From: Stigmatella aurantiaca DW4/3-1
GTDB lineage: Bacteria > Myxococcota > Myxococcia > Myxococcales > Myxococcaceae
Assembly (NCBI RefSeq): GCF_000165485.1
Contig: NC_014623.1
Coordinates: 6,466,893 to 6,530,892, forward strand
Reading direction: 5' to 3'
DNA length: 64,000 nt
Below the pieces are notes generated by a model. That model saw nothing but the letters and a program-made list of their open reading frames with translations. It did no database searches and was not told the origin of the DNA. Shown piece after piece: positions 2 through 60,574 of the stretch. A program made the position numbers and the translations under genes. Within the stretch, counting starts at the first letter, position 1, and each line of letters starts with the position of its first letter.

Positions 2-7426
<7,425 letters not shown>

Positions 7427-7448
7427 TCAGATGAGCGAGGGCAATGAC

Positions 7449-8951
7449 ATGGAAAAGAAGACTCCCGTCGTGATCGTGGGCGCTGGCCCTTGCGGCCTCG
7501 CGGCGGCCTGCGGACTCCGGCGCCGGGGCATCGAGGCGACCGTGCTGGACTCCTCGACGGAGCCAGGCAGCGGCTCACGGGCAATCCTGCTGTGGCCGCC
7601 CGTGCTCGACGTTCTGGACGAGCTGGGCGTGCTGCCCGAGGCCGAAAAGCATGGCTACCGCCCGCGCGCGCTGTGCTACCACACCAGCCGCAAGCGGACG
7701 ATCCGCCTGCCGCTCGACATGGTGAACGGCCCCTTGGTGCTCCGCCAGGACCGCACCAGCCGGTTGCTCGAGGCGGCACTGGAGAAGCTGGGCGGCCGCG
7801 TCGAGCGGCCAGTCCGCGTCACCGAGGTCATCCCCGGAAAGGAATCGGTCCGGGTGAACGCCGAAGGCCCTGGCGGGGCCCAGCTGTCGTACGAGGCCGA
7901 CTGGCTGATCGGCTCCGATGGGGCTCACAGCACGGTCCGCAAGCTGCTGGGGATCGATTTCGTTGGCACGGAATTCTCGCGGTCGTTCGCGCTCGCCGAG
8001 GGCCAGGTGGAGGGCGAATTCGATCGCGAAGATGCTCACTATTACGTGACGCCCGCTGGAGTTCTCGTGGTGATCGCCCTGCCTGGCGGAGAGGTCCGGC
8101 TCAGCGGGGCGCTCGCCGAGGGTGAGCAACTCAGCCTCGAAGCGGTACAGCGCCTGCTCGACCAGCGAGGCCCGGGGCATCTGCGCGTTTCCAATCCGAG
8201 CGTACTCACCACCTTCAGCGCCCCGCATCGAGTCGCCGCGTCGATGCGCAGCGGCCGGTGCTTTCTGGCCGGTGATTCCGCCCACGTTCACTCCCCAGCC
8301 GGTGGCCAAGGGCTTTCCCTCGGGATGCAGGACGTTCGCAACCTGGTGTGGAAGCTCGCTGGCGTGATCGATGGCCGACTGGCCCCTGAGATCCTCGACA
8401 GCTACGATCTCGAGCGAAGGGCAGCGGCACAGCAAGTGGTGAAGTCCATCCACCAGCTGACCCGCCAGACTCTGTTTCCGCCGATGGCGCTGCGCGTCCG
8501 CAATGCCGTGCTGCACCTCCTCCACCGGGCGGGACGCTTGCAGAACATCTTGCTGCCGTCCCTGGCCGGCCGGCAGATTCACTATCCAGATGTGCTCTTT
8601 GGGGGGCCGCTGTCCCCGGGGCCTGGCAAGCAGGGACGGCGCAATGACGCCCTGCCTGCTGCGGGAATGCAGGCCCCCGCCTGGGCTCCGAAAGCCGTTG
8701 GCAAAAACCTGGACGGCTTCCGCTTGATCACCTCAGGCCCCCAAGACAGCGCGCTGGCTCAACGAGCCGGCAAGCTCGTGGACGGTCGGCCCTCGCTCGC
8801 CGAGCACCGTCACCTTGCCGAGAACAAAGAAGGCTTTCTGCTGCTCCGCCCTGACGGCTACGTGGCCGCCAGTGGTCAGGCCACGCCTCAGCTCGATCAG
8901 GCATGGCAACGGCTGGAGCGCCTCGTGCAGCAACCCAAAGCGCTGGGCTGA
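7449..8951 (+). CDS. FAD-dependent aromatic-type monooxygenase (class A)
   Basis: Single-component flavoprotein hydroxylase of the PheA/TfdB-like family, using FAD and NAD(P)H to oxygenate an aromatic or polyketide substrate. Visible motifs are the N-terminal Rossmann [10 protein letters not shown], the middle DG motif in [12 protein letters not shown], and the GD motif in [20 protein letters not shown]. The C-terminal ~120 residues form the thioredoxin-like tail usual for this family. An in-frame ATG at 7431 also exists, but the ATG at 7449 has GAGCGAGGG just upstream, so I prefer it. The gene begins about 20 bases after the PKS stop and is almost certainly cotranscribed, acting as a tailoring enzyme. 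Substrate cannot be read from sequence. Confidence 0.93.
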
Positions 8952-9456: not shown

Positions 9457-9486
9457 TTGACGTGGCGCGAGCGATTTTGGTATCCA
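9457..9486 (+). promoter_or_regulatory. Possible sigma70-type promoter of the GH87-like gene
   Basis: TTGACG at 9457-9462, 18-base spacer, TATCCA at 9481-9486, in an AT-richer leader 117 bases before the chosen start at 9603. The -10 match is weak. Confidence 0.25.
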
Positions 9487-9602
9487 AGCGGATCGCTTTC
9501 CCGAAATGTTTTATCACCAGGCTGTATCACACCGGTGAGGTTGGCACCTCCGGGGCGGTCCGGACGCGTGAAACCTCACGTCTCGAAGAGGAGCCAGCAA
9601 CG

Positions 9603-11654
9603 ATGATTCGTCAGATCCTCGTGTCGACCTGCGCGTGCCTTTTGCTCGCTGCTTGCAGCGACGACCCTAGCGACCCCCCCAACGACCCCCCTGGCAACAA
9701 CGACCCCATCCCCCGCGGAGCCACCGTTCCCTGGGACGAGTACGAGGCCGAGGCAGGCGTTTCCTCCGGTGGCGCCACGCTCGAGCAGACCACCAGTGGC
9801 CCGTGGCTGGAGGGCACGCTCTCCGGCGAGGCATCGGGCCGCAAGGCGGTGACTCTGCATGGCCCCACCGCCGCAGTCGAGTGGACGAGCCGCGTCAAAG
9901 CCAACTCTGTCTTGGTGCGTTATAGCGTTCCGGACGAGAAAGAGGCCCATTTGGATGTATACGTGAATAACGCGAAGGTTGCTACGCTTACAGTGAACTC
10001 GGATTTCGCCTGGCTCTACACCGGCCCGAACAACACCGAGACGCACAACGCTTTTCCGCGCCAACAAGTGGACGAACTCCCTCAGAACCCGAGTTCCAGC
10101 GATGAGGGTTTTGGCCTGAAGTTGCCCTGGAGTTCCGCGCACCACATCTACGATGAGGCGCACGTGTTGCTGGCGACCGATGGCAGGGCGACCATCAACG
10201 AGGGCGATGTGGTGAAGATCATCTCGCCGGATGCCTCCACAGCACTCCCCGTCACCATCGACTTCATGGATCTCGAACTCGTGCCGGAGCCCCTCTCCGC
10301 CCCAGCGAACTACGTCGTCGTGAGCGAGTTCACCGAGGCAGCAGTGGTGCAGGCCCTTCAGGACGCCGTGAACGGCGGCAAACCTGGCATCTTTCTTCCG
10401 CCCGGCGATTACGTGATGGCGCACGTGAACCCGGCGCTCCCCAAGGTCTACGTTCCCGCCGGCCTGACCGTCCAAGGCGCCGGCATGTGGTACACGCGGT
10501 TCGTGCCCCCTCCTCCGCAACAGGTTGGCTACAATTACGAGTTCGGGTTCCGTCTGAGCGGTGACAACATCACCTTCCAGGATTTCGCGATCTTTGGAAC
10601 CTGGCGCAACCGGGCGGCGCGCTACAACAAGGCAGCGGCCGATCTCGGCAACTGGCCGTGGGACAGCTATGACGGGATCGGGCGTGCCTTCGATCGCTAC
10701 ATGCACAACAACGCTGTCTTCAAGCGGCTCTGGATTGAGCGGATGATCGTGGGTGGCTGGGTCGAGGGCGGCAACAACATGCTGTGGCAGGACAGCCGGT
10801 TCCGCAACACCCTGGCGGACGGCATCAACTTCTGCAACGGAACCACCAACTCGCGGATCGTGAACTGCACGGCGCGAAACAACGGCGACGATGCCTTCGC
10901 CATGTGGTCTGCCATTACCTGGGACAAGGCGCCCATTGGAAGCACCCCCTGGGTGAAGCAGCCCGAGGGTCCCAACCAGGGCAACGTCATTGAGCGTTGC
11001 ACCGCGGGCCTGATCTGGCGAGCGGCCGGTTTCGCGATTTACGGCGGCCACGACAACGTGGTCAAGGACTCGGTTGTCTATGACACCCTGCGATACCCGG
11101 GCATTACCGTGGACAACGAGTTTGCGCCCCAGCACGAGTTCTCCGGGCTCACCACCTTTCAAAACATGACGGTCGAGCGCTGCGGAGGCCGCATGTGGTG
11201 GGACGACGACGGAGTGTCTGGAGACGAAACCAAACGGCTGAAGTGGGGCGCGGTGTGGTTGTTTGCTGCCAACCCGTACTCTCCGGCCGAGCCGTACTCT
11301 CCTATCCGCTTTCAGGGCATCCGTTTGAACGACATCGATATCATCGACCCCGTTTATTACGGAGTACTGGTTCAGACCACGCAGGGGCAGCGGGTCGAGG
11401 ACACCGAGCTCGACGATGTCCACATTGCCATGGACCAATCGGGCGAGTTTGGCATGGTGGCCAATGACTCGCACAAGGCACCGCCCAGCCCGTTCACCGG
11501 GAAAATTGGCACCGCAGGCTCACTCACCCTCAAGAACTCGAGCATCACCGGCGCCCGGGCAAACTCCGGAAACATGTTCATGAAAGACGAAGTCTCCACC
11601 GGAACGTTCTCGTTCAAGGACGGCGGCGGGAACCTCTGGACGGGGGATCGGTAG
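9603..11654 (+). CDS. Secreted GH87-like alpha-1,3-glucanase/mycodextranase lipoprotein
   Basis: Predicted surface glycoside hydrolase. The ATG at 9603 has AGGAG ten bases upstream and opens a lipoprotein signal ending LLLAAC; the longer frame from 9462 lacks a signal. An Asp/Pro-rich linker precedes a CBM6/35-like beta-sandwich (about residues 35-210, with EYEAEAG). A right-handed beta-helix follows with ADGINFCNGT and NNGDDAFAMWS, which match the catalytic Asp region of GH87 enzymes (known acids are one Asp in ADGIN and the DD pair). Expected role is hydrolysis of fungal or bacterial alpha-1,3-glucan, fitting a predatory myxobacterium. It stands alone, separated from the PKS by a hairpin and 650 bases. 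Family call by motif; exact linkage specificity uncertain. Confidence 0.8.
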   Translation: MIRQILVSTCACLLLAACSDDPSDPPNDPPGNNDPIPRGATVPWDEYEAEAGVSSGGATLEQTTSGPWLEGTLSGEASGRKAVTLHGPTAAVEWTSRVKANSVLVRYSVPDEKEAHLDVYVNNAKVATLTVNSDFAWLYTGPNNTETHNAFPRQQVDELPQNPSSSDEGFGLKLPWSSAHHIYDEAHVLLATDGRATINEGDVVKIISPDASTALPVTIDFMDLELVPEPLSAPANYVVVSEFTEAAVVQALQDAVNGGKPGIFLPPGDYVMAHVNPALPKVYVPAGLTVQGAGMWYTRFVPPPPQQVGYNYEFGFRLSGDNITFQDFAIFGTWRNRAARYNKAAADLGNWPWDSYDGIGRAFDRYMHNNAVFKRLWIERMIVGGWVEGGNNMLWQDSRFRNTLADGINFCNGTTNSRIVNCTARNNGDDAFAMWSAITWDKAPIGSTPWVKQPEGPNQGNVIERCTAGLIWRAAGFAIYGGHDNVVKDSVVYDTLRYPGITVDNEFAPQHEFSGLTTFQNMTVERCGGRMWWDDDGVSGDETKRLKWGAVWLFAANPYSPAEPYSPIRFQGIRLNDIDIIDPVYYGVLVQTTQGQRVEDTELDDVHIAMDQSGEFGMVANDSHKAPPSPFTGKIGTAGSLTLKNSSITGARANSGNMFMKDEVSTGTFSFKDGGGNLWTGDR

Positions 11655-14335: not shown

Positions 14336-14383
14336 CCTTGGGGGTGGTACCCCTGAGCGGTGATGGAAGAGGGACCGACAAGC

Positions 14384-14840
14384 CTACATCTGCTGGCGCT
14401 GCTGCTGGAGCCAAACCTCCGGCAAGAGCTCGGCGAGTCGGGAGGCCGGGAAGCGGGTATCCCCCAGCTTTGGCAACACGTCTCTGAGGTAGGCCCACGG
14501 CTCCATGCCGAGCCGGTAGCAGCTGAGCACCAGGGTGTAGGCGACAGCAGCGCGGTGGCCTGCGGCGTCGCTGCCAGCAAACAGGTAGTTGTTGCGGCCG
14601 ATGGCGATCAGCCGGATGAGACGCTCCACCTCCCCATTGTCCAGCGGCAGGCGCCCATCTTCGAGGAAGCGCCCGAGGGGGAGGTAATGGTTCTGGGCGT
14701 AGGTGATGGCCTTGCCCAGCGGAGTTTGTAGAGGGAGGCACTCTTCTTCAGGCGCAGGTGTCCCCGCTGCTGGGGCGACAGCCCCTGTTCGGTGGCGTGG
14801 CGCTCGACGGCGTACAACTGCTGGATGTGAGAGAGCACCA
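14384..14840 (-). pseudogene. IS66-family transposase C-terminal remnant, frameshifted
   Basis: From about 14838 the minus strand reads LSHIQQLYAVERHATEQGLS and PQQRGHLRL. After a shift or small deletion near 14720-14745 it continues in another frame as PLGKAITYAQNHYLPLGRFL, then EDGRLPLDNGEVERLIR, GRNNYLFAGSDAAGHRAAV and EPWAYLRDVLPKL. These are the DDE end and the C-terminal domain of IS66 TnpC. The stop at 14384 is the natural C-terminus. It points opposite to the other IS66 piece at 12894-13083, and the two pieces do not overlap in the protein. Confidence 0.75.
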
Positions 14841-14856
14841 GAGCGGAGGGAGAAGG

Positions 14857-15296
14857 GCGTGAAGACGGAGCGCTCTCGCGAGGTGCCGGTCCACCCCGTA
14901 CTCGCCCGCGTCCTTGAAGAGTGGCGCCAGAAGGGATGGGAGCGTAAGCAGGGGCGCGCGCCCACGGCTGACGACCTCGTCGTTCCCTCCCGGCGTGGAG
15001 AGCACCGGCGTGACCCCGTCGTCCACGGGCAGCTCCGGGAAGACCTCGAGCTGCTCGGCCTGCGAGGCCGGCGGGTCCACGACACCCGCCGCACCTTCAT
15101 CAGCTTGGCGCTGGCGGACGGGGCGGACCGGGACAAGCTCGCCTGGGTCACACACGGGCCGAAGGGGGATATCGTGAGCCTCGACACGACGCTCCCCTGG
15201 GAGTCGCTCTGCGCGGAGGTGGCGAAGCTGAAGGTGGAGCTTCGGCCGCCGTCGACGCCGACAGGAGGCGCGCTGCCCTCGGACGATGCCCGGTAG
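14857..15296 (+). pseudogene. Tyrosine recombinase (integrase) C-terminal remnant, catalytic Tyr replaced
   Basis: Phage-type integrase catalytic half. TERSREVPVHPVLARVLEEW, RVHDTRRTFISLALADG (box II H-x-x-R) and VTHGPKGDIV are clear. The family continues with a Tyr in a context like LYTTLPW; here the codon is GAC and the protein reads SLDTTLPWESL, so the nucleophile seems to be Asp. The N-terminal core-binding domain and the box I Arg region are missing, truncated by the IS66 remnant. The gene ends 76 bases from the 3' end of tRNA-Leu, the usual place for an island integrase. Inactive by two criteria. Confidence 0.75.
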
Positions 15297-15334
15297 CTAC
15301 AGTCGAGCTACAGTCCAGAGCAGCAAACAAAAAA

Positions 15335-15368
15335 GCCCCCAAGTCTCAAGGACTTGGAGGCTTTTTTT
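15335..15368. terminator. Bidirectional rho-independent terminator beside tRNA-Leu
   Basis: Stem GCCCCCAAGTC / GACTTGGAGGC (one mismatch), loop TCAAG, followed by seven T on the plus strand and preceded by an A-run that serves as T-tract on the minus strand. It ends the tRNA-Leu transcript on the minus strand. Confidence 0.85.
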
Positions 15369-15372
15369 GGAG

Positions 15373-15454
15373 TGCCCAGGGCGGGATTCGAACCCGCACA
15401 CCTTTCGGCGCCACCCCCTCAAGATGGTGTGTCTACCAGTTCCACCACCTGGGC
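15373..15454 (-). tRNA. tRNA-Leu (anticodon GAG)
   Basis: The 82-base minus-strand sequence folds as a class II tRNA. It has a 7-bp acceptor stem GCCCAGG/CCTGGGC, anticodon stem CCATC/GGTGG with loop TTGAGGG (anticodon GAG), a short variable arm, a T arm GCGGG-TTCGAAT-CCCGC and discriminator A. CCA is not encoded. It resembles bacterial tRNA-Leu(GAG) closely. It follows secG and is a likely integration site for the element carrying the neighbouring integrase. Confidence 0.95.
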
Positions 15455-15492
15455 GAATCAACGCGGCCCATGTACCGAACCGCCGTGCTTCG

Positions 15493-15515
15493 CGCAACGG
15501 TTTTCAACCGCTGCG
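15493..15515 (-). terminator. Hairpin between secG and tRNA-Leu
   Basis: Inverted repeat CGCAACGGTT / AACCGCTGCG (one G-T type mismatch) with a three-base loop, 21 bases beyond the secG stop. There is no T-run, so it may be a processing or partial termination signal. Confidence 0.35.
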
Positions 15516-15536
15516 CTTCCAACGTTCTTCTTCTTG

Positions 15537-15968
15537 CTACGGCGCAGGCTGCGCCGGAGCTGCCTCGGACGGAGCCGGAGCAGGCGCCTCGCGCGGCTGC
15601 TCCATGCTGGGCGGGGTTCCTTCCGTGCCCCCTGCCGCAGGCGGCGTTGCTGCCGCCGGGGCCGGGGCCGCAGTGCCTCCCGCCGCCGCGGGCGCCGCTG
15701 CCGCCGGAGGCGTGGCCACTGGGCCCGCCGCCACCGAGGAACGCAGGCCGACGAACGACAGCCCCAGCGAGGTCAGGAAGAACAGCGCCGCGCAGACGCC
15801 CGTCAGCTTGCTGAGGAACGTCACCGCGCCTCGGCCACCGAAAGCGCTGGTGGCCGCACCACCGCCGAGCGCAGAGCCCATGCCCGCGTCCTTCCCGGGC
15901 TGCAGCAGGATGACGAAGATCATGAACACGCACAGCAGGACGTGCACGATCGTGAAGAAGGTCAGCAT
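15537..15968 (-). CDS. secG: Preprotein translocase subunit SecG
   Basis: Inner-membrane accessory subunit of the SecYEG channel. Two transmembrane segments flank the conserved loop: MLTFFTIVHVLLCVFMIFVI, then LLQPGKDAGMGSALGGG and GGRGAVTFLSKLTGVCAALF. At 143 residues it is longer than enteric SecG because of an Ala/Pro-rich tail from about residue 80, as in other myxobacteria. It is the last protein gene of the gap-pgk-tpiA-secG run, 95 bases after tpiA, and is followed by tRNA-Leu. The same tpiA-secG neighbourhood is common in diverse bacteria. Confidence 0.95.
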   Translation of the reverse strand: MLTFFTIVHVLLCVFMIFVILLQPGKDAGMGSALGGGAATSAFGGRGAVTFLSKLTGVCAALFFLTSLGLSFVGLRSSVAAGPVATPPAAAAPAAAGGTAAPAPAAATPPAAGGTEGTPPSMEQPREAPAPAPSEAAPAQPAP

Positions 15969-16063
15969 GGCTTCTCTTTCAAACGCTCAGTGGAAAAGGA
16001 CGCGCACCCTACACAACCGGCCAGTGGGGTGACAACTCCTTAACGTCACCCCGCCCCCTCCCC

Positions 16064-16834
16064 TCATGCCCCCGCCTTGACGATGGCCGCGAAGTCGCCC
16101 GCCTTCAGGCTCGCGCCCCCCACCAAAGCCCCATCCACATCCGGTTGTCCCAACAATTCCGCGGCGTTATCCGGCTTCACGCTGCCGCCGTACTGAATCC
16201 GCACCTGCCCCGCCGCCGCCCCATCGTACAGCCGGGCAAGCTGCGAGCGGATGGCCGCATGGACTTCCTGAGCCTGGGCGCTCGTGGCCGTACGGCCTGT
16301 ACCGATGGCCCAAACGGGCTCATACGCCAGAACGAACCGGGCCACGTCCGCCGCGCTGAAGCCGGCCAGCGCCCCCTTCACCTGGCGCTCCACCACCTCC
16401 AGCGTCCGGTTCGCCTCACGCTCCGCCAGCGTCTCGCCCACGCAAATGATGGGCACCATGCCCGCCTTGAGCACGGCCTGGGAGCGCTTGTTCACCGTCT
16501 CATCCGTCTCCCCGAAGAACTGGCGGCGCTCGGAGTGGCCGACGATGACGTAGGCACAGCCCACCTCCTTCAGCATCGGCGCGGCCACCTCGCCGGTGAA
16601 CGCCCCGGAGGCTTCCCAGTGGCAGTTCTGTGCCGCCAGCTTCAGGTTCGAGTCCTCGATGGCCTTGGCCACCGGGTGCAGTGCCACGAAGGGGGGCGCG
16701 ATGACGAGTTCCACCTTGTCACCCAGCGCCGAGACCAGCCCCCGCAGCTCTCGCACCAGGGCGAGCGCCTCGGGGACGGTCTTGTTCATCTTCCAGTTGC
16801 CAGCGACGATCTTCCGGCGCGCTTCGGCGGCCAT
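16064..16834 (-). CDS. tpiA: Triosephosphate isomerase
   Basis: Cytoplasmic glycolytic enzyme interconverting dihydroxyacetone phosphate and glyceraldehyde 3-phosphate. The 256-residue protein carries the catalytic Lys in GNWKMNK, His in VGHSERR, and Glu in [11 protein letters not shown], plus the phosphate-binding [10 protein letters not shown] and GALVGGASL. The ATG at 16834 has GGGAGG six bases upstream and gives the family N-terminus; the longer frame to 16942 has no support. It lies 37 bases after pgk in the same operon. Confidence 0.97.
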
Positions 16835-16871
16835 GGTCCCTCCCGGGAGATGATGGGACTGCGAGGATGGG

Positions 16872-18062
16872 CTACTTCGTCTCCAACGCCTTGATGCCCG
16901 GCAACTCGCGGCCCTCAAGGAACTCCAGCGACGCACCGCCACCGGTGGACACGTGGCTCATCTTGTCCCCGTAGCCCATCTGCTGCACGGCCGCGGCGCT
17001 GTCGCCTCCGCCGATCACCGTCACCGCGCCCCGGTTGTTGGCCATCGAGTCGGCCACCGTGCGCGTCCCCTCCGCGAACTGCTCCACCTCGAACAGGCCC
17101 ATGGGGCCGTTCCAGATCACGGTCTTCGCGTTGCGGATGTGCTGGTTGAACTGCGCGCGCGTCTTCGGCCCGATGTCCAGGCCCATCAAGTCCGCGGGGA
17201 TGGCCCGGTCCGGCGTCTCGCTCTTCACGCCCTTCTCGGTGGGCTCGTTGGCCACCACGTGGTCCACCGGCAGCACGATGGCCGTCTTCAGCCGCTGCGC
17301 CGCATCCAGGATCTTCGTGGCCAGGGACAGCTTGTCCTCCTCCACGCGGCTCTTGCCCACCTCGATGCCCTGCGCCTTGAGGAAGGTGTAGGCCATGGCA
17401 CCACCGATGAGCAGCGCGTCCACCTTGGGAAGCAGGCTCTCGATGACCTTGATCTTGTCGCTCACCTTGGAGCCACCCAGGATGGCCACGAAGGGCTTCT
17501 CCGGGTTCTTCAGCACGCCGCCCAGGTATTCGATCTCCTTGCGCATCAGGAGGCCAGCGCCCTTCTCCTTCACGAAGGGGACCATGCCCGCGGTGGACGC
17601 ATGGGCGCGGTGCGCGGTGCCGAACGCATCGTTGATGTACACGTCCGCCAGCGCCGCCAGCTCGCGCGCGAAGGCCTCGTCATTGGCCTCCTCTTCCTTG
17701 TGGAAGCGCAGGTTCTCGAGCACCAGCACCTGCCCGTCCTTCAGCTCCCGCACCTGCTTCTTCACCCCATCGCCCACGCAGTCATCGGCGAGGATGACCT
17801 CGTGCTTGGCCCCGAGCAGATCGGCCAGCTTCGAGGCGGCGGGCTCCAGCGACAGCTTCGGATCCGGTCCCGCCTTGGGACGTCCGAGGTGGGAGGCCAG
17901 GATGACCTTGCCACCCATCTCCAGCGCGCGGCGGATGGTGGGCAGCGCCTCACGGATGCGGGTGTCGTCCGTCACGCGCCTGCCCTCCAGCGGGACGTTG
18001 AAGTCCACGCGGATGAAGACGCGCTTGCCCGTGAGCTGCATGTCATCGATGTAGCGGATCAT
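16872..18062 (-). CDS. pgk: Phosphoglycerate kinase
   Basis: Transfers phosphate from 1,3-bisphosphoglycerate to ADP in glycolysis. The 396-residue length is normal. Seen are the N-domain substrate motif [37 protein letters not shown], and the nucleotide-site sequence GGGDSAAAV near the C-terminus. The start at 18062 has GGGGAG upstream and gives [15 protein letters not shown], so the longer frame to 18173, which reads into gap, was rejected. Gap to the upstream gap gene is 35 bases. Confidence 0.97.
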
Positions 18063-18097
18063 CTTGGTTCTCCCCTCTCGGTCGCCCGCGGTGCTGA

Positions 18098-19126
<1,029 letters not shown>

Positions 19127-52993: not shown

Positions 52994-53338
52994 TCAGCGA
53001 CAGTCTGGATCGTTCAGGCAGCGCGGGTTGCAACAACCATCCATCGCGCAAGTGCACGTCGGGAGGGTGAGGCCACACGCCTTCGAGACCCCGTTGCACG
53101 TCACACTGCCGGCACCGGCCGCACTCGCGGAGCACGCCCCAGACGAGCCGCTGCACGCCACGGTCGACCCACCCGTACAGCTGATGCTCACCGTGCAGTC
53201 CCCCACCAGTGCGGACTCCTGCGTTTGGAGGTGTTGCTCGGGGAGCATGGCTTCCTCTCCTGGCGCCTGATCCGAAATGGAACCACAGGCAGTCACCACC
53301 GCCACCATCACCACGAGAATCCCAGTCAGTGTCTTCAT
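52994..53338 (-). CDS. Small Cys-rich lipoprotein, second of its kind
   Basis: A 114-residue secreted protein: signal with lipobox VVTAC, short acidic spacer, then a Ser/Gly-rich disulfide-rich body with ten or more Cys (CTVSISCTGG, CSGSSGACSA, CTCAMDGCCNPRCLNDPDC). AAGGAG before the ATG at 53338 fixes the start. The cysteine-dense tail resembles secreted knots. It faces the beta-helix gene and shares a hairpin with it. Function unknown. Confidence 0.75.
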   Translation of the reverse strand: MKTLTGILVVMVAVVTACGSISDQAPGEEAMLPEQHLQTQESALVGDCTVSISCTGGSTVACSGSSGACSASAAGAGSVTCNGVSKACGLTLPTCTCAMDGCCNPRCLNDPDCR

Positions 53339-53519
53339 GAACGTCTCTCCTTCATCGAGGTATTGGATGAACATCCCCTGCGGATGCAGCGAAAGTGCCA
53401 ATCCCAGGTCAATGCCTCCTTCCTTCAATACAAGACATGCCCGCTATTATTGTTTAAGCCTACAAGAACAGCTGTGACCCGATCGGCTACAGGAGAGCGC
53501 CAGGTTGTGACTTTGGGCG

Positions 53520-54710
53520 CTACTCCCGGGGCAGGCCGAGCAGGTGGCTGGCGTAAGCGAGCATGGCCTGATCCCAGTTGACATCGATGTGAGACGTCAT
53601 GCTCTGGAGATCACGCCAGTGCCGTTGGACCGGATGGCCCTCGAACCCCGATGACGCCCCCATGTGAAGGACCAGGCGCTGGACAGCGTTGACACACAGC
53701 CGCGCGAGGTAGGCGCGATCACGCTTGAGCGCGAGCCACTCCTCAGAGGAGAGTGGCCGCCGGTCACCCCCTGCGCGGTGCAGCGTCTGGACAATCGAAT
53801 CGTAGAGGAGCCGCGCGCACGAGAGCTCGGCCGCGCTCTCCGCGAGGCGCTCCTGCGCTGTGCCCAGGGGGAGGCTGGGCGCTGAGGCGCTGCTGTCGAT
53901 CCGCTTGCGCAGGGCGGCCACATGCTCATGGTAAGCACCTTCCGCGCAGCCAAGGATCGGCCCGATGATCGCGCTGGTGGCATACGGGATGAACGGCACC
54001 TCGAAGAGATAGGAGCCGGGATTGACCTGGGCTCCCTCGGGCCGCGCGCCGAAGCAGTCCGGCAACGCCACCCCCCAGCCATCCGGTACGAACAGATTGT
54101 CAAACACGACATCCTTCGAGCCAGTTCCCCTCATGCCGGTGACGTGCCAGGTGTCTTCAACGCGAACCTGCCCGGGCCGCACGGCCAGCAGGAAGAGATT
54201 GGGCACCGGCGGTGCCGGGTGGTCCTCACAGCGGCCAGAGACAATGAGCCAGGTGGCGTGATCGATGCCCGAACTGAAGCGCCAGGTCCCATGGACACGG
54301 AACCCGCCCTCCTCTTTCCGAATGGTGCCGGTCGCCGTCACCGACGCGGTGGAGAAGAGCTGCCGGGGGCCATCGGCGAACATGACCTCCTGACAGTCCC
54401 GCGAAAACCGGCCCGCGATACCAGCATGACCGCCCACGATGCTCATCACCCAGGCCGTGGAAGCACAGGTCCGAGCGGCGACGCGGGCGGCTTCGACCAT
54501 CGTGGGCCAGTCGAGCTCCAGCCCGCCGTAGCGCCTTGGCACGATGATCTGCAAGAGACCGGCGTCGAAGAGCTCGACGATGGTCTCCCGGGGAAGGCTG
54601 CGCGCCCGCTCGGTGGCACCGGCGCGAGCCCGCCATCCTTCACTCAGTGCCTCGACGCGAGCGCACATCTCACCGTGCTCGGCACGAACCGGGGCGGCCC
54701 TATCGGACAT
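53520..54710 (-). CDS. Acyl-CoA-dehydrogenase-fold flavin monooxygenase (group D type)
   Basis: A 396-residue enzyme related to HsaA/HpaB-like two-component monooxygenases and acyl-CoA dehydrogenases. Seen: PRRYGGLELDWPTMVEAARV, ASTAWVMSIVGGHAG, the FMN/FAD-region GFRVHGTWRFSSGIDHATW, and MRGTGSKDVVFDNLFVPDGW, then a helical C-domain with MGASSGFEGHPVQRHWRDL. These enzymes hydroxylate small aromatic or amine substrates using reduced flavin from a partner reductase; none is encoded here. AGAGGAG precedes the ATG. It starts 14 bases after the ligase stop, as last gene of the operon. Confidence 0.85.
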   Translation of the reverse strand: MSDRAAPVRAEHGEMCARVEALSEGWRARAGATERARSLPRETIVELFDAGLLQIIVPRRYGGLELDWPTMVEAARVAARTCASTAWVMSIVGGHAGIAGRFSRDCQEVMFADGPRQLFSTASVTATGTIRKEEGGFRVHGTWRFSSGIDHATWLIVSGRCEDHPAPPVPNLFLLAVRPGQVRVEDTWHVTGMRGTGSKDVVFDNLFVPDGWGVALPDCFGARPEGAQVNPGSYLFEVPFIPYATSAIIGPILGCAEGAYHEHVAALRKRIDSSASAPSLPLGTAQERLAESAAELSCARLLYDSIVQTLHRAGGDRRPLSSEEWLALKRDRAYLARLCVNAVQRLVLHMGASSGFEGHPVQRHWRDLQSMTSHIDVNWDQAMLAYASHLLGLPRE

Positions 54711-54724
54711 GACAGCACTCCTCT

Positions 54725-57262
54725 TCACACGCTGACGCCCGCGACCCTGCGCACCACGGGCTTGTCGAAACAAAACTCCTCGGGAATGAACGGCTGACCG
54801 AGCAGGGCAACGAACCGTTCGATCACATCCCTGTCGTTCGACGCCACGAACTCATAAAAGTTCGTGCTGTTCCAGAGAAGATACACGTGCTGGAAGTGCC
54901 TCCCGAGAGAAGCCACCAGCGTCTCGAAGTCCACCTGCCCGTTCTCCATCTGCGCGAGCATCTGTTGCTTCTTCCACGCGATCTCCTCGGGCGTGAAGTA
55001 GAAGCTCTTGTGCTTCTCGTCCTTGGCACGCTCGCGGCGTTCATACTCCTCGGCGTCCGGATGATTGAGTTTCTCCAGGAAGAAGCCCAGACCATCGGGC
55101 TTCAGCAACTTCGCGACATGGCCGATTTGGCGATCTCGATCCGTTCCGTAGAACTGGAACGCCGCGGTTTCATAGAGATAGTCAACACCCTGAGCGAATA
55201 CCCCGTAGTCCGGATGGCCGACGAGGGAGTTCGCGTCCACCTGGAGACAAGACGCCGAGATGAACTTGGACAGGTGGGGGTTCGCGAATTTGTGGAAGTG
55301 CTCCTCGTTGGCTTTGTTGGGAGAACTGGTGAGCGTCTGGATTCTTCCTCCAGCAAAGCCCGCGAGCGTCCGCCCGTTCGAACCGTCGAACGCATCGGCC
55401 TCGTAGAAGGTGAAGGTGCGATCGCTTCCCTGGGCACGTTCCTCCGAAAGCCGCGTCAGCGCGACCCCCACGTGCGACATTTCCTCGAGAATACAGGGAA
55501 CGCTCGCAAGGAAATGAGAGAACAACGGCCCTGTCTTCCCAACGAGCAGGTCATGGTAGGCAAGCACGCGGGGGTCCGGGATGCGGTCCCGTATCCTCGT
55601 CACCACGGGCTGACGCGGGACCTGCGACCGTCCTGTCGCCAGCGCATGGAAATGATCCGCCAACCGGATCATCGCGGAGTTGGCAAGGTATTCGTTGACG
55701 TTGGCGGGCTGCGGACTCTCGGCCGGATCATCATTGTCCATCTGAAACCTCTTGGAAGTTTTTCCTGACAGGGTCCTCGGGAGCGCATCAAGGAACGCCA
55801 CACGGGTGGGAACCATGTGCCAATCGAGGGAGGCGGCGCAATATTGCATCACCTCCTCGGCACTGAGCGCGGCGCCTGCCCGAAGCACGACGCAAGCCTT
55901 GGGAACATGGCCCGCCGCTTCATCCGCCACGGGCACCACGGCCACTTCCGCGACGGCCTCGTGCGTCAAGAGGTGCGCTTCGATCTCGCGGGGGTTGACC
56001 TTGAACCCACCCCGGGAGAACACGTCGTCCTTCCGGCACACATAATAGAGATACCCGTCCTGATCGGTCCGGAACAGATCGCCGGTGAAGAGAACCCGCT
56101 CCTCGCCGAACAGATTGTCCTTGAGCACCTTCGACGTCTGCTCTGGCAGGTTCCAGTACCGCAACATCACAAGATCCCCAGCGACCGCGAGCTGCCCAGC
56201 CCGGCCTGGCTCGGTGACCAACTGGCCATCGTCATCGACCAGAAAGGCACGGACGCCCGGGATGGCCTTGCCCACGGAGCCTGGCCGCTTGTCAATCTCC
56301 GAGGGGGGGAGATAGGCAACACGCTTGCACTCGGTCAGTCCGTAGTTCGAGAAGATCTTGACTTGCGGAAACGCGCCCCTCAGACGGCGGATGTGCTTGA
56401 GCGGCAAGGCTTGCCCACTGCTGGAGATATACCGGAGGGGTTCGATGCGCTGCGACTCAAGATCTTCGATCTGGCAAACATGGAATATCACCGGAGGAAA
56501 CACTTGCATGCCGGTCACTTCTTCGCGGCGGATCACCTCGAGGATCTGCTCTGGCTTCTCGGGGATTTGCTTTTCCACAACCGCCCTGCCCCCGAAAAGC
56601 AGTGGCATCAGGATGTTGTAAAAGCCGTAGTCCGAGGCCAAGGTCGAATAGCTCAAGATGGCATCATCGGGTGTATTTTCCAGATACCCTGTCACGGACT
56701 GGAAGGCGGCGACCATGTTCTTGTGGCTGACCAGCACCCCTTTGGGCCTCGCACTTGAGCCTGAGGTGTAAAAGAGGGTGCCCAACCGGGCGTCGTCGTC
56801 GTCACCGCCCGCCTCGAACACCTCTGGCCCGTCCAGAGCCCTGATGTCCGCCACCCGTCCGCCCACACTCGACAGACCAGGGTCCGTGTGAAGGATGACC
56901 TTCAACGCCGCCTCCTCGGCGATGGGCTCCAGATCTCCGGAGATTCCAGTGACGAGCCCGCGGGCACCGGAGTCCTTGAGTTGAAAGAGCAGCTTGCGTT
57001 GACTGAAGGTGTGATGAACCGTGACCAGGACACAGCCTGCTTTCAGGATGCCGAGCACGGCGGCCAACGCTTCGATTGAAACCTCGGAGTAGATGGCAAC
57101 GCGATCCCCCCGGACAATTCCACGATCAACCAGCGCATGGGCGACACGAGAGGCCATGCGATCCAGCTGAGCATACGTGGCGGATTGCGCTCCGAGCACG
57201 ATCGCTTTTTTGTCCGGAAACCGTTCGACGTTGCGCTCGAAGAAGTGGTGGAAGAGTTTCAT
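54725..57262 (-). CDS. Acyl-AMP ligase fused to a methyltransferase-like domain
   Basis: An 845-residue fusion. Residues ~1-510 are an ANL adenylating domain: P-loop FYTSGSSARPKGVLVSHKN, NYGLTECKRVAYLPP, TGDLFRTDQDGYLYY, RKDDVFSRGGFKVNP and catalytic Lys in LSGKTSKRF. It resembles ligases of acyl-CoA/exosortase-associated type more than NRPS domains; there is no carrier domain. Residues ~540-845 resemble class I SAM methyltransferases (FYEADAFDGSNGRTLAG, VAKLLKPDGLGFFLEK, YLLWNSTNFYEFVAS), but motif I is atypical. ATG at 57262 sits in ATGA overlap with the MFS stop and has GGGAG upstream. Probably activates and methylates an acid in a dedicated pathway. Confidence 0.85.
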   Translation of the reverse strand: MKLFHHFFERNVERFPDKKAIVLGAQSATYAQLDRMASRVAHALVDRGIVRGDRVAIYSEVSIEALAAVLGILKAGCVLVTVHHTFSQRKLLFQLKDSGARGLVTGISGDLEPIAEEAALKVILHTDPGLSSVGGRVADIRALDGPEVFEAGGDDDDARLGTLFYTSGSSARPKGVLVSHKNMVAAFQSVTGYLENTPDDAILSYSTLASDYGFYNILMPLLFGGRAVVEKQIPEKPEQILEVIRREEVTGMQVFPPVIFHVCQIEDLESQRIEPLRYISSSGQALPLKHIRRLRGAFPQVKIFSNYGLTECKRVAYLPPSEIDKRPGSVGKAIPGVRAFLVDDDGQLVTEPGRAGQLAVAGDLVMLRYWNLPEQTSKVLKDNLFGEERVLFTGDLFRTDQDGYLYYVCRKDDVFSRGGFKVNPREIEAHLLTHEAVAEVAVVPVADEAAGHVPKACVVLRAGAALSAEEVMQYCAASLDWHMVPTRVAFLDALPRTLSGKTSKRFQMDNDDPAESPQPANVNEYLANSAMIRLADHFHALATGRSQVPRQPVVTRIRDRIPDPRVLAYHDLLVGKTGPLFSHFLASVPCILEEMSHVGVALTRLSEERAQGSDRTFTFYEADAFDGSNGRTLAGFAGGRIQTLTSSPNKANEEHFHKFANPHLSKFISASCLQVDANSLVGHPDYGVFAQGVDYLYETAAFQFYGTDRDRQIGHVAKLLKPDGLGFFLEKLNHPDAEEYERRERAKDEKHKSFYFTPEEIAWKKQQMLAQMENGQVDFETLVASLGRHFQHVYLLWNSTNFYEFVASNDRDVIERFVALLGQPFIPEEFCFDKPVVRRVAGVSV

Positions 57263-58518
57263 GGGCATCTCCCTGTCGTCTGCTCTCTGGACAAGTGACC
57301 TCTGGCCCTCACACGCCGCGCCATCATCCGCATCACGAGCGAGACCGCCACGCAATAAGCGCCCATCACCATGATCTGAGCCGGATAACTCACGCGGCGA
57401 TCAATCAGAACCCCCGCCAGCCCCGGACCCGCCGCCGAGGCGAAGATCAGGACCGCCACGACCACCGCTCGGATGGAGCCCAGATGCTTCACCCCATAGA
57501 GCTCGGGCCAGAGCGCTCCAAACATGGACAAGGAAAACCCATTGGAGACGCCATAGAGGGCCATGAAGGCGAACGCGCTCCATACCGCCTCGATGCTCCC
57601 CAGAAGAAACAAAGCGAGCCCCAGGGGCAGCAGGTAAACGGGCAGGAGCGCCACGGCCGAGAAGCGATCCACGAGTTGCCCGGACACGAGCGTGAAGACA
57701 ATGGTCATCGCGGCATAGAGCGTGAACGACGAGGCGAACGTTCCCGGCGGCCAGCCGCGCAGTTCCGCCAGATACACCTGATGAAAGAAGAGGGTGTTGC
57801 CGATGAAGGCGGGCGGCAACGTGGCCAGAAGCACGAAGTAGAAGAGCGGGTCGCGAAGCACCTCTCCCCTCGTCCAGCTCCGGGACCCGGCGGCGCGCCC
57901 CACCCACCCCCCAGGACCTGCCTCGGCCGCTTGCGGCGCGCGCTCCGCCGCGACCAGCGAGGCAATCACCGGCAAGGCCACCAAGACCAAGGCGCCGGCG
58001 ACGAGCTGCCATGCACCGCGCCACCCGAGGGAGGCCGCCAGCGCCACGAAGACGAGCGGAAGCAGCGCTTCGCCCATATTGAGGCCCAGCGTCGAGAAAG
58101 AGATGGCCTGCCCCCGGCGAGCCGAAAACCACCGCCCCATGACGGTGAAGGCCACATGGCTCATCATCCCCTGCCCGGACAGGCGCAGCAGGTAGAGGGT
58201 GACGCACAGAAGCGCCACGTGACGCGACAGGGCCATGGACGCGGCCGCCAGCGCCAGCACGGGCACCGTGAGCATCACCACGCTCCGCGCGCTGTACTGG
58301 TCGGCGATCTGACCGGCCCGCGCCAGCGTGAGTGCGCTCGCCAGCGTGGCCGCCATGTAGAGCGAGCTGAACTCGCCATGCGAGAGCGCATACTCCCGGC
58401 GGAGCTCTCCCGCCGAGAGCGCGATGAAGAAGGTCTGCCCGAACGACGAAAAAAAGAACAGCAGGAAGCCACCGGCCACCCACCGGGCATTCTCGCGAAG
58501 GAAGGTGAATCCTTGCAT
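57259..58518 (-). CDS. MFS transporter
   Basis: A 419-residue 12-helix transporter with LLFFFSSFGQTFFIALS, ARAGQIADQYSARSV (motif-A-like loop between helices 2 and 3), MGRWFSARRGQAISFSTLGL and VSGQLVDRFSAVALLPVY. It is of the monocarboxylate/nitrate-porter-like type, so export of a small acid is plausible but not proven. ATG at 58518 lies 25 bases after the cupin stop; an upstream ATG at 58578 would overlap the cupin gene. The stop overlaps the ligase start in ATGA. Confidence 0.85.
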   Translation of the reverse strand: MQGFTFLRENARWVAGGFLLFFFSSFGQTFFIALSAGELRREYALSHGEFSSLYMAATLASALTLARAGQIADQYSARSVVMLTVPVLALAAASMALSRHVALLCVTLYLLRLSGQGMMSHVAFTVMGRWFSARRGQAISFSTLGLNMGEALLPLVFVALAASLGWRGAWQLVAGALVLVALPVIASLVAAERAPQAAEAGPGGWVGRAAGSRSWTRGEVLRDPLFYFVLLATLPPAFIGNTLFFHQVYLAELRGWPPGTFASSFTLYAAMTIVFTLVSGQLVDRFSAVALLPVYLLPLGLALFLLGSIEAVWSAFAFMALYGVSNGFSLSMFGALWPELYGVKHLGSIRAVVVAVLIFASAAGPGLAGVLIDRRVSYPAQIMVMGAYCVAVSLVMRMMARRVRARGHLSREQTTGRCP

Positions 58519-58543
58519 GGTCCCAGGCGCTGCGGGGCTGGAC

Positions 58544-58930
58544 TCAGTAACCGGAACCGTTCTGTTTCGTGAGATCATGCCGCTCGACGCCCTGGAGCGG
58601 CGGGTTGAAGATGCTGACCAGGATCAGATCCGTGTCCTTGCCGCCACGCAGGTAGTGGCGGTCGTGCTGATCCAGCACATAGATATCACCGGGTCGAATG
58701 GGATAGACGTTGCCGTTCATGTCCTCGACCTCGCCTTCGCCCGCGATGCAATAGCAGGCTTCGAGGTGGTTGCGGTAATGCAACAGGGACTCCGTGCCCG
58801 CGCGGACGACCGTGTGGCAAACGGTAAACCCCATCCCGTCTTTTGCGGTGAGCAACCGGTGACTCGTCCCGGCACCCCATTCGACGAAGAACGCTGTTTT
58901 TTCGACGTCAGACAGACTGCGAACGAACAT
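58544..58930 (-). CDS. Ectoine-synthase-like cupin (EctC homologue)
   Basis: A 128-residue cupin very close to EctC: DDGMGF-like [12 protein letters not shown], Tyr52, Glu57 in NHLEACYC, Tyr84 and His92 in [11 protein letters not shown], and the end [15 protein letters not shown]. The Glu, Tyr and His correspond to the known iron ligands of EctC, so the active site is kept. EctC closes N-acetyl-diaminobutyrate to ectoine, but no ectA or ectB is near; instead the neighbours are an exporter, acyl ligase-methyltransferase and flavin monooxygenase. It may cyclise a different amino-acid-derived substrate. AGGAGG precedes the ATG. 18 bases separate it from the SGNH stop. Confidence 0.9.
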
Positions 58931-58948
58931 GACGATGCCTCCTACGGA

Positions 58949-60574
58949 TCACGGCAGGGTATAGAGGCCAACGACGTTCGGATCCAGCGTGGCGCTGGAG
59001 AGCCGCAGGCCGGTGGCGCCGCTGATGCTCGTGAGGTCGGTCACTCCCAGGTCCGCCAGGGAGAACGAGACGGCCCCCAGCTTCGACTGCACCGTGCCCG
59101 GGGGGGTGCCCGTGATGCTCGCCACGCCGCTCGTATAGGAGACCGTCGCCAGCGCAGTGGACGTAGTGCCCGCGGCCGAGGTGGTGAAGTCGCTTGCGAG
59201 CAATGACAGCGAGTAGCTGCCCACCGGCTGGTTGGACGCGTTGACCAACGTGACGGTGGTGGCGTCTCCAAGCGTTGTGGACGTGGTCGTGCTGTCGACG
59301 ATGAAGAAGCGCGTCTTCGCGGTGAAGGGCGTGCCAAACTGGAAGTTGCCCGTGCCCACGTTGTTCGCGCCGTCCTGGACGCCGAGGCCCGAGGCGGCCA
59401 CGCTGGCGTTGGCGGGCGTCGAGCCCCGGGAACTGGGCGCGTTGGTGCCCGTGATGCCGCTGGCCGTCGCGCCCGTGAGCTGGGTGAAGGTGCCCTCCGC
59501 CGTCGTGAGCGAGGCCAGTTGGGCGATGCCGGTGAGGTTGACCGGGGTCCCCGCCGTCACTGCGCCCGAGAAGGTCGCGCCGGTGACCGGCTGGCGCGTG
59601 CTCTCCCCAGGTGGAGGAAGAGGGTCGGCCAGCGCGGTGATTTCGTAGGCGATGCGGTGGAGGTTGCTGGCCTCGGTCGCGCTGATGCCCAGCTCCGCCG
59701 CCGCGCTGCCCGCGCCCGTGGCCAAGCCCCGGGGATCGACCTGCGTGATCTTCGCGAACAGCACCGCCGCGGACAGGTAGCTGCCGTACTTGCTCGAGTG
59801 GCGGCTGTCCTGGTTGCTCCACAGATTGACCATACCCGGAGAAAGGCCGTCGGCGGGATTCGGGTCGGCCACGCCCTGCTCGACCGCGCGCATGAAACCG
59901 TCACCCACGCGGGCGACCCCCTTGAATCCCAGGTCCCGGGAAGCCTTGAAGTAGGCGTCGCGCAAGTCGGCCTGCATCGCCTGTAGCCCCGCAGTGCCGC
60001 TCGGGTAGCCCTGCGCGCCGACGGAGGCAGGTGAGGACCAGGTCTCGTACAGGAACAGGTTCGCAGCGGGGTTCTTGGAGAGCACCAGTGAGCGCAGGTT
60101 GCGCGCGCTCTCCGTGAAAGCCGTGGGCGAGCCTCCCCGGGCTGTGGGCAGCGGCGTCGTGCTCTGCTCCTGGAACACGACGGTGTTCCAGGTGGCCTGA
60201 CCAATGGTCGCCGCCTTGTTGGCGAAGTGCCACCCGAGCGTCTGACCGCTGGCAGTCTCGAGGCTCACGTTGAACGCGAGGCCAGCCTGCACGGTCAGCT
60301 TCTTGAAGACGCCTGGGATGCCCCCCACGCTGGAGCCGTTCGTGTCGGTGACCGCGGCCTTGTTGTACGAATAGACCGGCTCCTCGTTGCCGTGGGTGAA
60401 GCTGTTGCCCACGAAGAGGATGTTGCCGCCGGTGACCGCGGAGGTTGAATCGCCCCAATCATCTTCCGGTTCGGACTCGGGACGGCCCGTGCAGCTTGCG
60501 CTGACCGCGAGGACGCCCCAAGCCAGCAGGGCCAGTACTCGAGGATGGGTGGCAGGCGACGGAAATGTTCGCAT
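58949..60574 (-). CDS. SGNH-hydrolase-like lipoprotein with beta-rich C-terminal domain
   Basis: A 541-residue exported protein. Signal VLALLAWGVLAVSASC has a lipobox-like end. The GDSL-like block is NILFVGNSFTHGNEEP (block I Ser in NSF), with ATWNTVVFQEQS and a late DxxH candidate in NQDSRHSSKYG. Residues ~320-541 are a Thr/Ser/Gly-rich beta domain with two similar halves. Acts probably as an esterase or polysaccharide O-deacetylase at the surface; substrate unknown. It ends 18 bases before the cupin start and so may head the same transcript, though a functional link is unproven. Confidence 0.8.
   Translation of the reverse strand: MRTFPSPATHPRVLALLAWGVLAVSASCTGRPESEPEDDWGDSTSAVTGGNILFVGNSFTHGNEEPVYSYNKAAVTDTNGSSVGGIPGVFKKLTVQAGLAFNVSLETASGQTLGWHFANKAATIGQATWNTVVFQEQSTTPLPTARGGSPTAFTESARNLRSLVLSKNPAANLFLYETWSSPASVGAQGYPSGTAGLQAMQADLRDAYFKASRDLGFKGVARVGDGFMRAVEQGVADPNPADGLSPGMVNLWSNQDSRHSSKYGSYLSAAVLFAKITQVDPRGLATGAGSAAAELGISATEASNLHRIAYEITALADPLPPPGESTRQPVTGATFSGAVTAGTPVNLTGIAQLASLTTAEGTFTQLTGATASGITGTNAPSSRGSTPANASVAASGLGVQDGANNVGTGNFQFGTPFTAKTRFFIVDSTTTSTTLGDATTVTLVNASNQPVGSYSLSLLASDFTTSAAGTTSTALATVSYTSGVASITGTPPGTVQSKLGAVSFSLADLGVTDLTSISGATGLRLSSATLDPNVVGLYTLP

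Follow-up and report, generated by a model that had tools for sequence, protein, structure and literature searches.

Four tightly packed genes on the minus strand of Stigmatella aurantiaca DW4/3-1 are the subject of this report. They lie within a 64,000-nucleotide stretch of contig NC_014623.1 (hereafter the window) and encode, in the direction of transcription, an EctC-like cupin (58544-58930, 128 residues), an MFS transporter referred to here as type 1 (57259-58518, 419 residues), a ligase fused to a methyltransferase-like (MT-like) domain (54725-57262) and an HsaA-like flavoprotein with the acyl-CoA dehydrogenase fold, of the group D monooxygenase type (53520-54710, 396 residues). The border within the fusion gene is approximate and separates an adenylate-forming (ANL) ligase domain (55742-57262) from a class I methyltransferase-fold domain of 338 residues (54725-55741). 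The cupin and MFS genes are 25 bases apart, the MFS and fusion genes overlap by four bases (ATGA), and 14 bases separate the fusion gene from the flavoprotein gene. Starts and stops are intact in all four genes, and the coordinates, gaps and overlap reported in a preliminary description of this DNA all held.

The gene immediately upstream, on which that description was silent, occupies 58949-60574 on the same strand, stops 18 bases before the cupin gene and matches DUF4886 in Pfam below the cut-off only. The 18-base spacer (58931-58948) contains GTAGGAGG, a strong ribosome binding site for the cupin gene, and, given its shortness, the four genes may in this genome be read through from the upstream gene.

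Conservation, rarity and mobility of the gene set

At least 13 loci with this type of MT-like domain were found, in three genomes of the genus, three alphaproteobacteria, one Variovorax and six actinomycetes. In every one of them the EctC-like cupin, ligase, MT-like domain, HsaA-like flavoprotein and an MFS protein occur together, and conservation of the set in 13 loci makes a chance association very unlikely; the co-occurrence in related genomes on which the preliminary description had depended was thus confirmed. Within the class, the cupin was matched in four of 147 genomes at E 1e-5, three of them in the genus (seven genomes searched) and one, weak, in another genus (G061, 32% identity over 75 residues, not counted as EctC-like). 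Across the phylum the MT-like domain turned up in three of 195 genomes, all of them the genus genomes just mentioned, and the two carriers other than S. aurantiaca DW4/3-1 hold the four genes in identical order. A plasmid search yielded a match of 60% identity to the MT-like domain on a plasmid of Agrobacterium vitis VAR03-1, where cupin, MFS, ligase, MT-like and HsaA-like genes again stand together, the HsaA-like frame being absent from the distributed gene table. When named genomes were scanned with the MT alignment, at least nine loci emerged, in Variovorax, Bradyrhizobium aeschynomenes, A. larrymoorei, three Streptomyces, Actinorugispora and two Nocardiopsis, and all nine, found with the MT-like domain alone, hold the five functions side by side.

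The cassette is rare. It is present in 3 of 392 genomes of the genus of S. smyrnaeus and in 2 of 200 of the family of a Nocardiopsis, all five being among the loci already counted. Some relative of the MT-like domain occurs in 17 of 247 genomes of the family of A. larrymoorei, with only A. larrymoorei itself at cassette level (592.7 versus 189–242 bits). Control loci gave a different picture: none of the six inspected loci with distant MT-like proteins had a match to cupin, ligase or HsaA-like protein. On plasmids, other related cupins were inspected at eight loci, none of which matched the cassette MT-like or HsaA-like protein and three of which had a weak ligase match of 24–28%. Clustering of neighbouring genes revealed no family beyond the five functions that is shared by all 13 loci. 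RidA was present only in the two Agrobacterium loci, and an SDR-carrier fusion and RPE of A. vitis were unmatched in the nine genome loci.

At the DNA level the cassette of S. aurantiaca is alignable with those of the two related carriers as a single block, 53522-58941, at 82% identity, and only weak scattered matches of 66–70% were found outside it; we regard this block as the whole mobile unit. In a genome without the cassette (G077), similarity to the upstream gene (89%) ends exactly at its stop codon, and the same was seen in G082 (75%). The exact empty site was thereby half found, as the other side in G077 had no alignable sequence in the 18 kb taken. The G+C content of the cupin and ligase-MT genes is 59–60%, compared with 65–68% in three neighbouring genes. 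Between genus members, ratios of nonsynonymous to synonymous substitution rates were 0.05–0.07 for the cupin, 0.17–0.22 for the ligase-MT protein and the flavoprotein and 0.41–0.49 for the MFS protein; by this measure all four genes are under purifying selection, the cupin most strongly. The A. vitis cassette region (L013) is flanked by an IS21-type element at 2972-5217, with an annotated IstB, and by a transposase-like frame at 14369-17349 that appears by eye to be of Tn3 type. These mobile-element flanks are in line with transfer.

A cupin subfamily distinct from ectoine-cluster EctC

The window cupin scores 131.7 bits against PF06339 (cut-off 27) and 163.3 bits against PRK13290 (cut-off 128) and aligns with solved EctC structures across most of its length. 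The iron ligands Glu57, Tyr84 and His92 (numbering of Paenibacillus lautus EctC) are retained, in agreement with its initial description as an EctC homologue with intact iron ligands. It is the only PF06339 gene of the S. aurantiaca genome (one contig, 10.26 Mb, completeness 100). The whole-genome search for ectA and ectB that had been called for was carried out, and neither gene was found over its cut-off: the best ectA score was 24.3 bits (cut-off 120.6) and the best ectB score 234.9 bits (cut-off 552.2). There were 15 such sub-cut-off ectB matches, and matches of this kind occurred in all 14 control genomes too. In the named-genome scan the cassette cupin was recovered from all nine genomes. 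The six actinomycete hosts have an additional, canonical EctC (176–187 bits, versus 109–125 bits for the cassette cupin), which is adjoined by EctB in each (tblastn, with a query from one of them); the EctB exceeded the NCBIfam cut-off in the four of six read in frame. Variovorax, Bradyrhizobium and A. larrymoorei yielded the cassette cupin only. These data give no sign that the cupin serves ectoine synthesis: no ectAB scores over its cut-off, six of the nine other hosts have a separate canonical EctC, and the cupin falls into a subfamily of its own.

That subfamily emerged from a comparison of 85 cupins: 13 from cassettes, 30 with showdomycin-like neighbours, 18 rhizobial or similar, 22 canonical EctCs (21 ectB-linked ones from this analysis and P. 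lautus EctC) and two others (L025 and L111, both WGNG by eye), which were left ungrouped. The showdomycin-type label reflects neighbouring genes (ligase, carrier, dehydrogenase or YeiN-like), not products, and for seven of these loci (L054, L087, L088, L093-L096) it rests on a dehydrogenase and/or transglutaminase-like neighbour within short flanks. The rhizobial group was assigned by similarity and place, with ATP-grasp neighbours in 4 of 18 and a nonribosomal peptide synthetase (NRPS) in one; among its 13 genome loci, five have a partial ligase match (28–32% over 103–137 residues) and eight match no query. The motif Trp18-Gly19-x-Gly21 (WGxG) is present in all 61 cassette, showdomycin-type and rhizobial cupins (13/13 and 30/30 for the first two groups) and is missing from all 22 canonical EctCs. 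Canonical EctCs invariably have Trp21, whereas the 13 cassette cupins have Gly21 with the tryptophan moved to position 18. Position 38 is His (21) or Asn (1) in canonical EctCs and Cys in every cassette cupin and throughout the non-canonical groups, except for Thr or Ala in 11 showdomycin-type cupins, and position 59 is Cys in the WGxG groups versus Val in canonical EctCs. The iron ligands, Ser23, Arg25, Thr40, Tyr52, Phe106, Glu114 and His116 are common to all 83 grouped cupins. In the cupin tree a branch supported at 100/99 separates the canonical EctCs from the other cupins. Judged by sequence, the cassette cupin thus belongs to a WGxG subfamily distinct from the EctC of ectoine clusters. 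Compared with P. lautus EctC (5ONN), it shares the fold family, the iron ligands and the other seven residues and differs in having Trp18 in place of Trp21, Cys38, Cys59 and Ser104 instead of Cys, and in lacking ectAB.

These differences agree with what is reported for EctCs encoded away from ectoine clusters. Trp21 is conserved in 437 EctCs of ect clusters and displaced by two positions in part of a set of 145 orphans, its replacement by Ala leaves 9.7% activity, and Ser104 is frequent among orphans (PMC6344544). The tryptophan shift and Ser104 fit the present findings, the shift being three positions in the alignment made here. Orphans make up 145 of 582 EctCs (PMC5924519), and their function is called unresolved (PMC5924519, PMC6344544). 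The cassette cupin resembles the solitary EctCs of PMC5924519 in occurring without ectAB and differs from them in its fixed partners and subfamily signature. No title or abstract listed in searches of an open-licence library describes the cassette; subscription papers lie mostly outside that search, and absence from print is not established by it. Of the novelty claimed at the outset, the cassette itself stands to this extent; orphan EctCs and the cyclisation of glutamine in showdomycin biosynthesis are in print.

Related cupins were also seen in other settings. Five loci on plasmids of nodule bacteria (L019-L023) encode cupins 74–83% identical to that of the window, with ATP-grasp enzymes, amino-acid-type enzymes, MFS proteins or transporters and one NRPS as neighbours, and S. 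meliloti pCpl has two copies of such a cupin; the same module may here be used in further candidate pathways. In Gloeothece PCC 7822 (L025:8799-15110) an EctC-like cupin gene adjoins genes for a desaturase, a GNAT protein, a tryptophan halogenase and an HpaB-type monooxygenase. Nocardiopsis alkaliphila (L054, G203) has three EctC-family cupins: a canonical one, that of the cassette, and a third by an acyl-CoA-dehydrogenase-like gene.

Partner proteins of the cupin

The ligase domain matches PF00501 and PF13193 and is a full AMP-binding enzyme; NCBIfam models for A-domains and for CoA ligases both match it, each below the cut-off. Its pocket, numbered by hand on motifs, has the equivalents of Asp235 and Lys517, as is usual in amino-acid activation, together with Lys329-Arg330, a pair invariant in all 13 cassette ligases. 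The two showdomycin-type ligases examined have Asn329/Asp330 at these positions and are 24% identical to the cassette ligase. An acidic partner, and not the amidine, is thus the probable substrate of the cassette ligase. Ligase and MT-like domain are fused in the three genus members and in Streptomyces CB02400, and are encoded by separate genes in 9 of 13 loci.

Single-sequence Pfam and PDB searches with the C-terminal 338 residues gave no match; a methyltransferase model was weakly matched by up to three of ten family members, and the best hit of a ten-sequence profile was CmoA at E 0.028. The identity of this domain therefore rests on its fold. An AlphaFold2 model from the ten sequences (pLDDT 88.9) adopts the class I methyltransferase fold; its nearest structural matches are CmoA (Foldseek E 3.4e-10) and CysG(N-16) (4.9e-10), tied in structural Z (19.2 over 220 residues and 19.0 over 209). 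The domain differs from both in its low identity (17% and 16%), extra N-terminal helices and altered motif I, which reads DAFDG[ST]NG in 13 of 13 sequences. The preliminary assignment of an acyl-AMP ligase fused to a methyltransferase-like domain is thereby substantiated, with methyl transfer as a candidate activity. No aminocarboxypropyl transferase was recognised among the 50 structural matches listed, which excludes nothing. As a separate candidate for this domain, the azetidine-2-carboxylate synthases AzeJ and VioH were rejected, since their signature motifs PFNxxGN and RxxYYxxC (PMC11794875) both occur in none of the 13 sequences.

Distant relatives of the MT-like domain occur outside the cassette. 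On Agrobacterium plasmids (L015:11244-13023; L014:11052-13023; L018:9052-11050) they adjoin an acyl-homoserine-lactone synthase, as in A. tumefaciens, or a LuxR regulator. The mobilisable 5.7-kb Escherichia coli plasmid NZ_AP022820.1 (L137) carries one at 4214-5164 next to a LysE-type exporter at 3635-4207, the rest consisting of replication and mobilisation genes and one hypothetical gene; such proteins were matched in 25 Escherichia and two Salmonella plasmid records, of 5.7 kb in those displayed. The lone relative beside LysE and those by acyl-homoserine-lactone synthases hint that the wider MT family by itself may make an exported small molecule, possibly from S-adenosylmethionine (SAM). 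The 5.7-kb plasmid may possibly direct synthesis of an inhibitor that resembles an amino acid, of which the methionine-antagonised microcin 15m is an example (PMC12162799, PMC6795089).

The best NCBIfam model for the flavoprotein is HsaA, at 238.5 bits and below the 450-bit equivalog cut-off, so that the protein is a relative and not HsaA itself. Its best PDB matches are HsaA-type hydroxylases, HsaA and C2-HPAH being nearest. RedW and PigA models were absent from its NCBIfam matches, and it had no significant BLAST match to the dehydrogenases of the showdomycin-like loci L026 (Burkholderia) and L024 (Streptomyces). A histidine aligned with a catalytic C-terminal His of HsaA is invariant in ten cassette flavoproteins. 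The earlier assignment to group D-type flavin monooxygenases accordingly stands as a matter of nearest relatives. The MFS protein of the genus and the actinomycetes (type 1, nine loci) belongs to a family other than that of the four proteobacterial loci, and the two were not joined by BLAST; a transporter is thus part of the set, its kind being exchangeable. The nearest NCBIfam models of type 1 are lactate and phosphoglycerate transporters, far below the cut-off, so that the exporter first described is an MFS protein that might also act in import.

A candidate cyclic amidine pathway and its alternatives

The proposed start of showdomycin biosynthesis is the cyclisation of L-glutamine to 2-amino-1-pyrroline-5-carboxylate (ADPC) by the cyclase SdmE, followed by adenylation (SdmC), carrier loading (SdmD) and oxidation (PMC8724604). 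Canonical EctC converts glutamine to the same cyclic amidine in a side reaction (PMC6344544, PMC4795551). On these two grounds glutamine is the first candidate substrate of the cassette cupin. A locus in Burkholderia stagnalis combines an adenylating enzyme, a carrier, an EctC-like cupin, a flavoprotein, a transglutaminase-like protein and a pseudouridine-phosphate glycosidase; its flavoprotein is closest in NCBIfam to prolyl-carrier dehydrogenase (299 bits, cut-off 650) and has such enzymes as its best PDB matches. By analogy, this gene content supports an EctC-like SdmE. The anthelvencin pathway, too, uses an EctC-like enzyme. Among the 27 best-scoring non-cassette cupin loci of Streptomyces (L070-L096), a prolyl-dehydrogenase-like flavoprotein is near 26 and a pseudouridine-phosphate-glycosidase-like gene near one; showdomycin-like modules look frequent in Streptomyces by this gene content.

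Sequence comparison establishes the set, its conservation, the signs of its mobility and the purifying selection acting on it. Beyond this, the balance of the evidence tips towards a small cassette for specialised metabolism that moves by horizontal transfer and whose cupin forms a cyclic amidine, with glutamine as the likeliest substrate. The cupin, a probable cyclic-amidine-forming cyclase, would close glutamine to ADPC; the ligase would adenylate an amino acid or an acid partner and pass the product to the MT-like domain, a hand-over suggested by their fusion in two lineages; the flavoprotein may hydroxylate the ring or a nitrogen; and the MFS protein would carry the product across the membrane. 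The preliminary description had the cupin close an amino-acid-derived precursor that is activated by the ligase, oxygenated and exported. This remains plausible in outline, as the set is inherited together and related cupins sit in small-molecule pathways, and its details are unproven: oxygenation by the flavoprotein and export by the MFS protein are predictions, and activation of the cupin's own substrate by the ligase sits badly with the Lys/Arg pocket.

Several observations weigh against the cassette as an amidine pathway acquired as a unit. The Lys329/Arg330 pair is opposite in charge to Asn329/Asp330, so that the ligase probably does not activate ADPC, and no carrier protein was found, either as a Pfam domain in the four genes, as a motif in six frames of 53001-59000, or among the neighbour families common to all 13 loci, although a carrier encoded elsewhere in the genome is conceivable. 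The link to showdomycin presumes an EctC-like SdmE. The MFS protein, from its nearest models, could be an importer. The MFS and HsaA-like genes have a G+C content of 66–67%, like the neighbouring genes, and four proteins of the A. vitis cassette are 90–95% identical to those of A. larrymoorei, so that these two loci are not independent. The cassette cupins do not form one clade, rhizobial cupins of other contexts nesting with the proteobacterial and genus ones, and the cupin therefore looks like an interchangeable module; the tree rests on only 128 columns, a small number flagged by the tree program, which also cautions that long branches meet inside the canonical group.

HsaA-type hydroxylases, CoA ligases and MFS uptake are the usual kit of catabolic operons, and the four genes may be read as one in which the MFS protein takes up a cyclic or aromatic substrate, which the ligase converts to its CoA thioester and the HsaA-like protein hydroxylates, while the cupin opens an amidine ring. 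The weak resemblance of the transporter to lactate and phosphoglycerate carriers and a minor hydrolytic activity of EctC (PMC4795551) favour this reading. We consider it unlikely, given that the 13 loci have no ring-cleavage enzyme, flavin reductase or regulator in common and that the WGxG subfamily occurs elsewhere beside ligases, carriers, prolyl-peptidyl-carrier-protein-dehydrogenase-like enzymes, ATP-grasp enzymes and an NRPS. A complete aminopyrrole module, with glutamine converted to ADPC, activated and aromatised, would have in common with the showdomycin pathway and the Burkholderia (L026) and Streptomyces (L024) loci a related WGxG cupin, an adenylating enzyme and a flavoprotein of the acyl-CoA dehydrogenase fold. 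The cassette differs in having an MT-like domain and no carrier or C-glycosidase in the operon, and its flavoprotein and ligase belong to other subfamilies. Showdomycin-like chemistry throughout was rejected for the later steps on the divergence and reversed pocket charge of the ligase, and such a module is very unlikely.

CmoA is a SAM-remodelling enzyme and CysG an ordinary methyl transferase, and their tie as nearest folds bears on a further reading, in which the MT-like domain would load an amide or amine with the 3-amino-3-carboxypropyl group of SAM; the cupin would then close the resulting N-gamma-substituted diaminobutyrate to an ectoine-like ring without EctA or EctB. The likeness to CmoA, the invariant motif I, the distant relatives by a LysE-type exporter or an acyl-homoserine-lactone synthase and the amino-acid-type Asp235 of the ligase all suit such an ectoine analogue. 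The likeness to CysG, the structural matches without a recognised aminocarboxypropyl transferase, and the loss of Trp21 and His/Asn38 from the cassette cupin speak against it and make it improbable. Finally, the cupin could be a remnant or orphan ectoine synthase fed with N-gamma-acetyl-diaminobutyrate from outside. Its iron ligands and most substrate residues are kept, and the solitary EctC of Pseudomonas syringae gave ectoine in an ectC mutant of Halomonas elongata (PMC5924519). The fixed association with ligase, MT-like domain and HsaA-like protein, the canonical EctC in the same genome of six hosts and the strong purifying selection render this highly implausible.

The remainder of the window includes a modular polyketide synthase frame cut by the window edge (29-8948; KS, AT, DH, ER-like, KR and carrier domains) and followed by an FAD-dependent oxidoreductase, an alpha-1,3-glucanase-like protein (9462-11651) and a GAPDH-phosphoglycerate kinase pair (16875-19111).

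The preferred reading, a mobile cassette with a cyclic amidine product, may be carried further. It is conceivable, if decidedly a long shot, that a cassette spread horizontally through at least four lineages makes a new class of cyclic amidines: the MT subfamily would build an amino-acid unit from SAM instead of methylating, and the ligase, this SAM enzyme and the cupin would jointly form a ring of ectoine or pyrroline type with no need of EctA and EctB. The fixed partners, the WGxG signature and the small size of about 5.4 kb make the question of orphan EctC function directly testable by expression of the cassette in a laboratory host. Genome mining usually takes the ectoine synthase family as the sign of an ectoine cluster, and cassettes of this kind may for that reason be misread as ectoine genes; the WGxG motif together with an absent ectB would tell them apart from ectoine clusters. 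If shared by a myxobacterium, rhizobia, Variovorax and actinomycetes, a small portable amidine pathway would represent a new family of natural products.

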